In this document: piece after piece, positions 12,450 through 33,876 of the stretch
Position numbering within the stretch: the first letter of the stretch is position 1
Layout of the letters: each line of letters begins with the position of its first letter
IMG/VR virus record: IMGVR_UViG_3300013014_000079
Location: 1-33,891 of that record
Length of the DNA: 33,891 nt
Direction: 5' to 3' (one strand)
Source of the DNA: a virus
Position numbers and translations under genes: made by a program
Notes under the pieces: model-generated
Database searches by the model: none
What the model saw: the letters and a program-made list of their open reading frames with translations, nothing else
What the model was told of the DNA's origin: nothing

Positions 12450-13151
12450 ATGCAAATTAAGAACTGGAAAAAGTTTCAACACTTTAAAGATAGAAAACCG
12501 CCTTGGGTAAAGTTGTATCGAGATTTACTTGATGACATAGAGTGGTTTGAACTTGACCCAAAAGCCGCAAAAGTCTTAGTAATGCTGTGGTTAATAGCCA
12601 GCGAAGACGATGGAAACATACCAACTGCAAAACAACTGGCTTTTCGATTAAGAATGTCAGAAAAGGAAACAGAAGTTTGCATTTTCAAGTTGTCTCATTG
12701 GCTGGAACAAGGTGATAGCGATGTGATATCAACACGATATCAAGATGATGCACCAGAGACAGAGAGAGAGACAGAGAAAGAGATAGAGACAGAATGTATT
12801 AGCCCACCTAGCGGTGGACTTCCAAACTGTGACCATGAAAAAGTAATTGCTCTATACCACCAGCATCTACCAACGTTACGCAAGGTGGAGGTATGGAACG
12901 ATGCCCGTAAAGGCTACCTACGGCAAAGATGGCGAGAAGTCGCTGAAGAACTAGCAAAAGAAAAAGATGTGCAAGTTACGGACATATTGACTTGGTTTGC
13001 TGAATTCTTTAGCCATATTAGCCAATCTAAATTCTTGACAGGCAGGGTAAACAGTAAAGATGGTCGCGCTTTTGTGGCTGACCTAGAGTGGATACTTAAA
13101 CCATCCAATTTTGCAAAAATTATCGAAGGAAAATACCATGGCACTCAGTAA
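12450..13151 (+). CDS. Phage replication protein (O-like, helix-turn-helix)
   Basis: A 233-aa protein with an N-terminal winged-helix domain (about 1-85: W-K-K-F-Q-H-F, K-L-Y-R-D-L, A-K-Q-L-A-F-R-L-R-M-S). A hydrophilic E/T/R-rich linker follows (about 98-115). The C-terminal domain contains LYHQHLPTLRKVEVWNDARK (131-150), then LRQRWRE and the ADLEWILKPSNFAKIIEGKY tail typical of phage replisome organisers and lambda O / DnaT-like proteins. These bind the origin and recruit host helicase. AAAAGG precedes the ATG. No helicase, loader, primase or polymerase gene is visible, so host replication factors are needed. Confidence 0.75.
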   Translation: MQIKNWKKFQHFKDRKPPWVKLYRDLLDDIEWFELDPKAAKVLVMLWLIASEDDGNIPTAKQLAFRLRMSEKETEVCIFKLSHWLEQGDSDVISTRYQDDAPETERETEKEIETECISPPSGGLPNCDHEKVIALYHQHLPTLRKVEVWNDARKGYLRQRWREVAEELAKEKDVQVTDILTWFAEFFSHISQSKFLTGRVNSKDGRAFVADLEWILKPSNFAKIIEGKYHGTQ

Positions 13152-16841: not shown

Positions 16842-17348
16842 ATGGGAAAAACAGCACAAAATGCCGTGAAACGCTCGGTTGGCAGGCCAGTTATATGGGA
16901 AGAGGACAATCCTGTGTGGGAAGAGGTTGTCTCGCAGATGGCTACGGGTAAGAGTCTGTCATCGGTGCTGAGAGCGCCTGGTATGCCTCCTTGGGCTACC
17001 TTTAACCGAATGCTGAGAAGCAATGAGCAGTTGCGTGTTGCTTACGACAAGGCGGTGCAAGACAGGGCTGATAAGCTGGCAGACGAGATCATTGAGCTAT
17101 CAGACGCGGTAATGCCAGAAGGCTTACGAGGACCAGAGGCAAGCGCTTGGGTGCAACAGAAGAGGCTACAGGTAGACGCTAGGAAGTGGGTAGCCAGTAA
17201 GCTCAAGCCCAGAACCTATGGTGACCGCATCGATGTCAGCGTGGTAGACCAGCGTATCAGCGTGATAGACGCTATCAACGAGGCGCAGGCTAGGGTAAGT
17301 TACGACAGAAGCAATGTGACTGACATTGAGGTTAAAGACGAGAACTAA
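16842..17348 (+). CDS. Terminase small subunit
   Basis: A 168-aa basic/acidic mixed protein. The N-terminus has G-R-P (KRSVGRPVIW, 10-19), then helices with G-K-S-L-S-S-V and PPWATFNRMLRSN (49-61), which resemble the helix-turn-helix DNA-binding part of small terminases. ELSDAVMPEG and QQKRLQVDARKWVASKLKP (105-123) are typical of the family's oligomerisation region. It recognises the packaging site and regulates the large subunit. AAGGA precedes the ATG. The large subunit gene follows after a 267-base gap, unusual because most terminase pairs are adjacent. Confidence 0.85.
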   Translation: MGKTAQNAVKRSVGRPVIWEEDNPVWEEVVSQMATGKSLSSVLRAPGMPPWATFNRMLRSNEQLRVAYDKAVQDRADKLADEIIELSDAVMPEGLRGPEASAWVQQKRLQVDARKWVASKLKPRTYGDRIDVSVVDQRISVIDAINEAQARVSYDRSNVTDIEVKDEN

Positions 17349-17615
17349 AGCGTATGGCTACTTCACACTATGTTCATTATGTAAAGTTCTTTAGCGGTTA
17401 TGCACAGGTTTGTAAGCAAGATTGTGAATAAGGTGAGGGAAATCCTACCGATTGTGGACAACTAGGCGCTGGCTCTGTGGATAAATGACCCAAGCGCCCT
17501 ATGCCCATCCACCATCCAGACCGAAGGGGGGGGGGAGGACCGACGAGGAAAGGTCACAGGAACGGTGCACCCGCACACAATTTTTTATTATTTTTTTTTA
17601 AATTAAGATCGCCTC
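17349..17615. other. Candidate replication origin (DnaA boxes, A/T tract)
   Basis: A gene-free 267 bases between terS and terL. Four DnaA boxes occur in 87 bases: TTATGCACA (plus strand, 17398-17406), TTATTCACA (minus, 17423-17431), TTGTCCACA (minus, 17453-17461, one mismatch) and TTATCCACA (minus, 17476-17484). Downstream lie a run of ten G (17526-17535) and an A/T-only tract of 28 bases (17579-17606) ending in GATC (17607-17610), like a duplex-unwinding element. This is the layout of a small bacterial oriC. A packaging site may share the region. Confidence 0.65.
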
Positions 17616-19139
17616 ATGCAACTGCCCATTTACAAGTCTGAAGAAGAACAAAAACTGATGGTGGAGCTTTGGTCTCCTACCATCTCAGATGATCCAGAAG
17701 CCTTTGTCTTGTTTGCATTCCCTTGGGGGCAGAAGAATACGCCTTTGGCTAAGTTCACTGGTCCAAGGAAATGGCAACGAGAAGTATTGCGAGATATAAC
17801 CGCCCACATTAAAAAGCAAAAAGGCTTAGTTGATTACGACACCATCCGTATGGCTGTCTCCTCTGGGCGCGGTATCGGCAAGTCTGCCCTAGTATCTTGG
17901 CTTATTCTGTGGATGCTGACTACCCGTATCGGTGGATCGGTGGTGGTGTCGGCTAACTCTGAGAATCAGTTAAGGTCGGTCACATGGGCTGAATTGACTA
18001 AATGGGCTGCTATGCTGATCAATAGTCATTGGTGGGAGATTTCAGCGACAAAGTTAATCCCTGCACAGTGGTTAACAGAACTGGTTGAGCGCGATCTTAA
18101 AAAAGGCACTCGTTATTGGTCTTGTGAGGGCAAACTCTGGTCAGCAGAAAACCCTGACTCTTACGCTGGTGTCCACAACCAAGACGGCATGATGCTGATT
18201 TTTGACGAATCTAGCGGTATCCCTAACCCAATCTGGGAGGTGGGTGCAGGCTTCTTTACCGAGAACACTCCTGACAGATACTGGTTTGCCTTCTCCAATC
18301 CGCGTAGGAATGAGGGCTACTTTTTTGAGTGCTTCCATGCCAAACGAGACTTTTGGACATCTAAGATTGTGGACGCTAGGACGGTGGAAGATACCGACAA
18401 GTCTGTCTATCAACAAATCATTGCCGAATATGGCGAAGATTCAAGCCAAGCCAAAGTCGAGGTTTATGGGGAATTCCCATCCGCAGGCGAAGACCAGTTC
18501 ATTAGCCCAATGATTGTGGATGACGCAATGAAAAGGGAAAAGTGGAAAGACTTAACCGCACCTACGATTGTGGGAGTCGACCCTGCCCGTGGTGGCGCAG
18601 ACTCTACAGTCATTGCTGTCAGACAAGGGCGAGATATTGTGGCGATTAAGCGATATAAGGGCGAAGACACAATGGAAATTGTTGGCAGAGTCATTGACGC
18701 AATAGAGGAATACAAGCCTGCACTTACCGTTATTGACGAAGGTGGTCTTGGATATGGAATTCTTGATCGACTGACAGAGCAGAGATACAAAGTGCGTGGT
18801 GTTAACTTTGGAAACAAGGCAAAACACTCGCAAGCATTTGGAAATAAACGCGCAGAAATGTGGAACGACATGCGAAACTGGTTAAAATCTGCTAGTATTC
18901 CGTCTGATAGACAACTAAAAGCTGATTTAACTGGGCCAACAAAGAAGCCCAATTCATCTGGCACGATATTTTTAGAGGGAAAGAAAGAAATGAAAGCACG
19001 AGGGTTGGCTTCACCAGACGCTGCCGATGCTATCGCTGTCACTTTTGCTTTTCCTGTAGCGCACAGAGAGTACACTGAACCTACTCACCGCATTAATGCA
19101 CAAGGCAGTTCAGTATCAACAAGTTGGATGGGTGCTTAG
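17616..19139 (+). CDS. Terminase large subunit
   Basis: A 507-aa DNA packaging motor. The ATPase has Walker A SSGRGIGKS (82-90) and Walker B LIFDE (194-198). The C-terminal RNase-H-like nuclease has VGVDPARGGADST (319-331, D322), VIDEGG (372-377, D374/E375) and a terminal PDAADAIA. It cuts concatemers and drives DNA into procapsids through the portal. No strong ribosome site precedes the ATG, which is in the A/T-rich candidate origin flank. Length is normal for P22-like and related headful terminases. Confidence 0.95.
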   Translation: MQLPIYKSEEEQKLMVELWSPTISDDPEAFVLFAFPWGQKNTPLAKFTGPRKWQREVLRDITAHIKKQKGLVDYDTIRMAVSSGRGIGKSALVSWLILWMLTTRIGGSVVVSANSENQLRSVTWAELTKWAAMLINSHWWEISATKLIPAQWLTELVERDLKKGTRYWSCEGKLWSAENPDSYAGVHNQDGMMLIFDESSGIPNPIWEVGAGFFTENTPDRYWFAFSNPRRNEGYFFECFHAKRDFWTSKIVDARTVEDTDKSVYQQIIAEYGEDSSQAKVEVYGEFPSAGEDQFISPMIVDDAMKREKWKDLTAPTIVGVDPARGGADSTVIAVRQGRDIVAIKRYKGEDTMEIVGRVIDAIEEYKPALTVIDEGGLGYGILDRLTEQRYKVRGVNFGNKAKHSQAFGNKRAEMWNDMRNWLKSASIPSDRQLKADLTGPTKKPNSSGTIFLEGKKEMKARGLASPDAADAIAVTFAFPVAHREYTEPTHRINAQGSSVSTSWMGA

Positions 19140-33513: not shown

Positions 33514-33876
33514 ATGAACTTTATTGAACCTGAGATCAAGCATCACTTTGGCGGAGGAATTTACGCCAAAGAAATGCGAATGCCAGCAGATTATTTGTTG
33601 TTACACCATAAACATACATTTTCTCATTTGTCAGTTTTGGCTAGTGGATCAATAGAATTGATTGTTGATGGCAAAAAAAAAGTTATACATGCGCCTGCTT
33701 GTTTAACTATTGAAGCAAATGTCCATCACGGTGTAAAGTCACTTACGGATGTTGTTTGGTATTGCATTCATGCTACTGACTGTACAAATGAAGATAAGAT
33801 TGATGAAGTTTTGACAGAACCGCACGACATGGCGCAAGTATTGTCAATTGCACAAAATTTAGTTAAGGAGAATTGA
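33514..33876 (+). CDS. Cupin-fold small protein, allele 2
   Basis: A 120-aa homologue of the cupin at 209-571. Residues 1-20 and the stretch HHGVKSLTDVVWYCIHATD (71-89) are identical. Residues 21-36, 54-57 and 93-120 differ, giving about 70% identity overall. Metal-motif His residues (32, 34, 38) and GSIELIVDG are kept. It looks like the same gene from another strain, with variation concentrated in exposed parts. A Lys-rich run replaces Q-V-S at 54-56. Confidence 0.7.
   Translation: MNFIEPEIKHHFGGGIYAKEMRMPADYLLLHHKHTFSHLSVLASGSIELIVDGKKKVIHAPACLTIEANVHHGVKSLTDVVWYCIHATDCTNEDKIDEVLTEPHDMAQVLSIAQNLVKEN

Follow-up and report, generated by a model that had tools for sequence, protein, structure and literature searches.

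Most of the tailed phages that have been studied closely bring an initiator and origin sites of their own, and the plasmid-prophage origin of P1, oriR, is one that has DnaA boxes. Published accounts name oriR for phage P1 (PMC9948254), report that an origin with DnaA boxes is predicted in Pseudomonas phage PseuGes_254 (PMC11512268), and describe host DnaA in lambda as thought to act in the switch to rolling-circle replication (PMC5499656). Origins built on DnaA boxes are familiar as a kind; a phage version that is conserved, invertible and tied to a primase-helicase was not found in the open-access papers searched, where we met no description of the element analyzed here.

The DNA under study, which we call the window, is the whole 33,891-base stretch of an IMG/VR virus record (IMGVR_UViG_3300013014_000079). 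A sequence-only reading had proposed a minimal oriC between its terminase subunit genes, with DnaA boxes followed by an A/T-only unwinding element. We find it fairly probable that this gap holds a compact DnaA-box replication origin of a family that normally encodes a Toprim/AAA_25 primase-helicase, with host DnaA as initiator. This part of the proposal is the best supported of the readings considered, owing to box conservation, a fixed architecture that includes a companion motif (M), and coupling to the primase-helicase, while the part assigned to the A/T tract probably does not hold. The features concerned are as follows.

12450..13151, plus strand: O-like/DnaD-like replication initiation protein (phrog_5810, E 9e-22), which takes the place of the primase-helicase of most relatives
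16842..17348, plus strand: terS, small terminase (phrog_1482, E 2.7e-33), by profile match
17362..17388, plus strand: motif M, TTCACACTATGTTCATTATGTAAAGTT (family consensus TTTATACARTGNCCATTATGTTAAGTT), AT-rich, 27 nt, a candidate unwinding or initiator-specific site, from alignments
17398..17406, plus strand: DnaA box 1, TTATGCACA, starting 9 nt past M, the spacing that the family shows most often
17423..17431, minus strand: DnaA box 2, TTATTCACA, an exact match
17453..17461, minus strand: weak DnaA box 3, TTGTCCACA, the same variant standing at fixed places in relatives
17476..17484, minus strand: DnaA box 4, TTATCCACA, an exact match
17527..17569, plus strand: G-run and GC block (AGGxCC...AAAGG.C.C.GGAACGG), conserved in the window's terS family, box-less relatives included
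17579..17606, plus strand: A/T-only tract of 28 bases that immediately precedes the next gene and travels with the GC block
17616..19139, plus strand: terL, large terminase

Gene coordinates (17348 and 17616) bear out the 267-base separation of terS and terL, and the gap (17349-17615) contains three exact TTATNCACA sites and one TTGTCCACA, a single-mismatch box, all inside 87 bases and at the positions first described (17398, 17423, 17476 and 17453). The three sites, 17398(+), 17423(-) and 17476(-), are the only exact ones in the window. Their total is unremarkable (3 against 1.9 expected), and the clustering is the unusual part; the gap thereby has the three or more clustered consensus DnaA boxes that mark an oriC-type origin. 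No tandem array was found there, no sigma-70 promoter or intrinsic terminator was called, and an Rfam comparison returned no structured-RNA match. We rejected a structured RNA in the gap on this last result and because inversion of the whole block, described below, speaks against a transcript. Elsewhere in the window, near both ends of the record, positions 209-571 and 33514-33876 hold homologous genes whose first 20 residues are identical (MNFIEPEIKHHFGGGIYAKE).

Conservation of the boxes in relatives had been named beforehand as a test that could refute the origin proposal, and the proposal passed it. TerL and TerS scans of IMG/VR, from each of which 80 loci were taken (389 terS relatives lay in viral contigs), provided gaps that were delimited by homology. 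Exact boxes occur within 250 nt downstream of terS in 80/91 loci; over these 91 distinct regions the first 250 nt after terS contain 178 exact boxes, against 29 in 971 kb elsewhere, an enrichment of ~262-fold, although the loci share ancestry and neither box nor locus counts are independent. In the same regions, 300 letter-shuffled patterns gave a mean of 0.5 and a maximum of 9. Box columns were better conserved than the remaining alignment columns in every group tested, and among relatives whose TerS identity falls as low as 47% the box letters are retained while the spacers have diverged. In these alignments the most variable of the nine box positions is the N position (0.255 vs 0.04-0.14), as DnaA binding predicts. 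Two loci deserve separate mention. In one (L060 6805-7028), a box cluster lies beside CTGACCGG tandem repeats upstream of terL, with a different terS and without motif M. In the other (L158 6201-6289), a contig of the same viral family whose element is intact has been assigned to an Acidimicrobium MAG, a placement that is probably a binning error. Besides this viral contig, a search for the host through prophages returned only an orphan terS from Candidatus Nitrotoga.

The boxes occur in a fixed arrangement with motif M. A spacing of M, 9 nt, box, 32 nt, box recurs in 82 family loci and 99 scanned M loci, with diverged sequence in between; counted from the end of M, box starts fall at offset +9 in 40 family and 34 scanned loci and at offset +50 in 36 and 37, respectively. 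The window has the +9 box, and its M, which differs from the family consensus at 6 positions, has a sequence kept in the window's own subgroup. M is inverted in 13/91 loci, and in one group (L124/L126) the entire block of M and boxes is inverted with its spacing unchanged, which favors a DNA element that works in either orientation over a leader RNA or a promoter. When viral sequences were scanned with an exact M 15-mer (CCATTATGTTAAGTT), 117 loci were recovered, 81 of them with boxes inside 150 nt, and 43 of these 81 have no homologous terS nearby.

The element formed by M and the boxes measures about 125 bp. Like a bacterial oriC, it has several TTATNCACA boxes in both orientations within a short intergenic stretch, and the first box is separated by 9 nt from an AT-rich segment. 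Unlike one, it is phage-borne, small, linked to a phage primase-helicase, and equipped with a specific 27-nt M. In 399 sampled Burkholderiales genomes M was absent from beside boxes save for one chance match, inside an alcohol dehydrogenase-like gene; M was thus not copied from a chromosomal origin of that sample, and a captured host oriC was rejected. The resemblance to P1 oriR is that of a phage origin, here a predicted one, with host DnaA boxes. Unlike oriR, the element lies beside helicase or terminase genes in small podovirus-like genomes, and neither RepA-type iterons nor repA was found: the scanned ORFs include no initiator of RepA type, and the gap has no array of tandem repeats.

Downstream of the boxes, the GC block and A/T tract behave differently, and judged from alignments the conserved region is composed of two separable parts, M with the boxes and the GC block with the A/T tract. 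The latter pair sits directly before the next gene, which is either terL or a cassette. In many relatives (e.g. L090 3730-5828) this cassette, 1.5-2.7 kb long, separates the A/T tract from terL, and it is absent from the window; it contains large ORFs of no known function, up to about 770 aa. The 28-base A/T-only tract was confirmed at 17579-17606, but the GATC described at its end is not conserved (L089 and L001 read GATT). By nearest-neighbor energy the tract provides the window's least stable 27-mer (rank 1 of 33,865), and M ranks only 1197. However, a group of relatives that lacks M and has lost every box (L007, L010/L102, L014, L093, L094, L097, L098, L100 and L101) keeps the GC block and A/T tract, and the tract is often absent from other lineages that do have M and boxes, several having no conserved A/T run beside the boxes. 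For both reasons the tract is probably not the boxes' unwinding element, contrary to what had been proposed. A better candidate for that role, we infer, is the AT-rich M next to box 1. The GC block and A/T tract (17527-17606) may represent a pac site or a promoter.

Across the family, the element follows the replication genes. Most boxed phages represented by whole records encode a protein of 660-720 aa with Toprim and AAA_25 domains, a primase-helicase, although they differ among themselves in replication modules. Where a primase-helicase locus offered enough sequence, M and a box lay ≤2.5 kb downstream in 73/74 cases, and the primase-helicase is present in 54/81 loci with M and boxes vs 0/36 box-less M matches (p 3e-13). 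Within the terS family, exact boxes occur in 53/55 loci carrying the primase-helicase and in 0/3 having only the other O-type initiator (cluster c63). The linkage to replication genes typical of oriC-type origins is thereby found in the family, the helicase itself being absent from the window. The element of M and boxes was found in at least three unrelated terminase lineages and in scores of unrelated lake phages. In the second lineage (L236/L278), with a TerL about 30% identical, it is inverted and lies between terS and terL; in the third (L530/L541/L546/L562), with unrelated terS and terL, the order is helicase, RusA, small ORF, element, terS, terL. As far as gene content and order indicate, the element is coupled to the replicative primase-helicase and not to the terminase, and because it precedes terS in the third lineage its position between terS and terL is incidental.

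These observations bear on the idea that the element is a pac or cos site recognized by TerS, at which DnaA would be an accessory protein of architectural function. In two of the terminase lineages the element does lie between terS and terL, as would suit such a site. A packaging site should be present with, and adjoin, its cognate terS, and the element is not so distributed: box-less relatives whose TerS is 66-68% identical to that of the window have neither M nor boxes, presence of the element tracks the helicase, and the GC block common to the terS family is a better pac candidate. The third lineage, in which the element stands before an unrelated terS, once with a methyltransferase gene in between (L530), indicates that it is not a pac site. 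We regard a packaging role as highly improbable.

The window departs from most of its family in lacking the Toprim/AAA_25 primase-helicase. The statement that it encodes no phage helicase or loader was nonetheless mistaken, as ORF 12450-13151 matches O-like and DnaD-like replication proteins. The relatives of this protein are mainly in other phages without box clusters; such a cluster occurs in 0/14 whole records of other phages with the same initiator family, so O-type phages can manage without the DnaA-box element. A locus with a close TerS and a similar element layout (G019, locus L091) does have the helicase. On these comparisons the window is best read as a recombinant in which the early region was exchanged and the element, with three exact boxes, was kept. 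There the element may serve as the main origin or as a second working one, or may be a retained relic, and its role may be auxiliary.

An O-like initiator also raises the question of a lambda-like origin inside ORF 12450-13151, with a CAGAGA array as the initiator sites and the 17.4-kb element as a relic or as a modulator of the switch to rolling-circle replication. The gene does show lambda-O-type modularity, with a conserved C-terminal part and N-terminal parts exchanged within the family; CAGAGA is repeated 6.7 times at 12754-12793 between the halves of the gene, with more copies in G018 (L195 4135-4851); boxes have been lost in relatives with other O-type initiators, and the 14 O-type records have no clusters. 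However, this microsatellite is all that was seen in the gene by way of the spaced iterons of a lambda-type origin, and it is a hexamer repeat encoding a Thr/Glu linker, not spaced iterons; the initiator genes of G001 and G003 have no repeats. The window's boxes are undecayed, with three exact copies and the fixed TTGTCCACA, and, unlike lambda ori, the element lies outside the O-like gene and occurs also in phages without that gene. We consider a lambda-like origin, the chief rival reading, possible but doubtful; the microsatellite itself may be a linker or a set of initiator sites. GC skew shows the same shift at terL in boxed and box-less genomes and favors neither side.

Named phages offer a comparison at the level of the helicase. 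The nearest by primase-helicase are about 32-40% identical, and two of them, both cultured and marine, have arrays in the intergenic DNA directly downstream of the helicase: in Alteromonas phage PB15 (L582 19500-20010), 13/27 of the genome's GGTTCA words fall in 510 nt, and in Idiomarinaceae phage 1N2-2 (L583 34190-34480), 11/22 of the genome's GGTACA words fall in 290 nt. These iteron-like clusters, each unique in its genome, are probably the origins of the two phages. Salicola phage CGphi29 and Roseobacter phage CRP-406 have no clear array of that sort, named phages with related terL or terS have no box clusters, and blastn against named phages and plasmids detected no similar element. The arrays of PB15 and 1N2-2 share with the element the helicase family, the position, and repeated sites ending in NCACA. 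Unlike the element, they have sites that read GGTTCACA or GGTACACA, which is not the DnaA consensus, and they are without motif M. Going by position, DnaA boxes in the freshwater family appear to occupy the place of the phage-type iterons of PB15 and 1N2-2.

The shared place and NCACA half could also mean that DnaA has no part and that the phage encodes an initiator of its own, possibly the primase-helicase or a protein associated with it, which has come to bind TTATNCACA by convergence. Against this, the box is the full DnaA consensus, degenerate mainly at the consensus's own degenerate position; the window retains boxes without a primase-helicase; and no recognizable DnaA DNA-binding domain was detected in boxed phage genomes by a search that did match MW202483. 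We think convergence unlikely. The MW202483 match is a DnaA DNA-binding domain gene (L083 7083-7379; PF08299, E 3e-19) in a terL relative without the element.

High-quality boxes in a multi-copy genome might, finally, serve as a DnaA decoy, titrating the protein and stopping host replication, or as a transcription switch through which DnaA regulates late genes. Titration needs no rigid 9/32-nt spacing, motif M, orientation independence or helicase linkage, and no promoter was found in the gap; we judge both quite unlikely. For the DnaA-box origin, we propose that host DnaA would bind the TTATNCACA boxes, as their exact agreement with the DnaA consensus suggests, and that the DnaA complex would be anchored at a fixed spacing, positioned by M. 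The AT-rich M segment beside box 1 could then open, and the opened single strands would give entry to the phage helicase. In the window, loading would be the task of the O-like/DnaD-like protein, with recruitment of host DnaB.

The broader proposal, for which we see about even chances, is that of a mobile, orientation-independent DnaA-box origin with a 27-nt companion motif, common to several unrelated lake-phage lineages, that would replace phage-specific iterons downstream of the primase-helicase and hand initiation to host DnaA. If this is true, replication of these phages would be tied to the host's initiation control, and M with the boxes would provide a sequence handle for origins in uncultured phages. 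It would also offer a natural comparison of phage-specific iterons and host-type boxes beside one helicase family.
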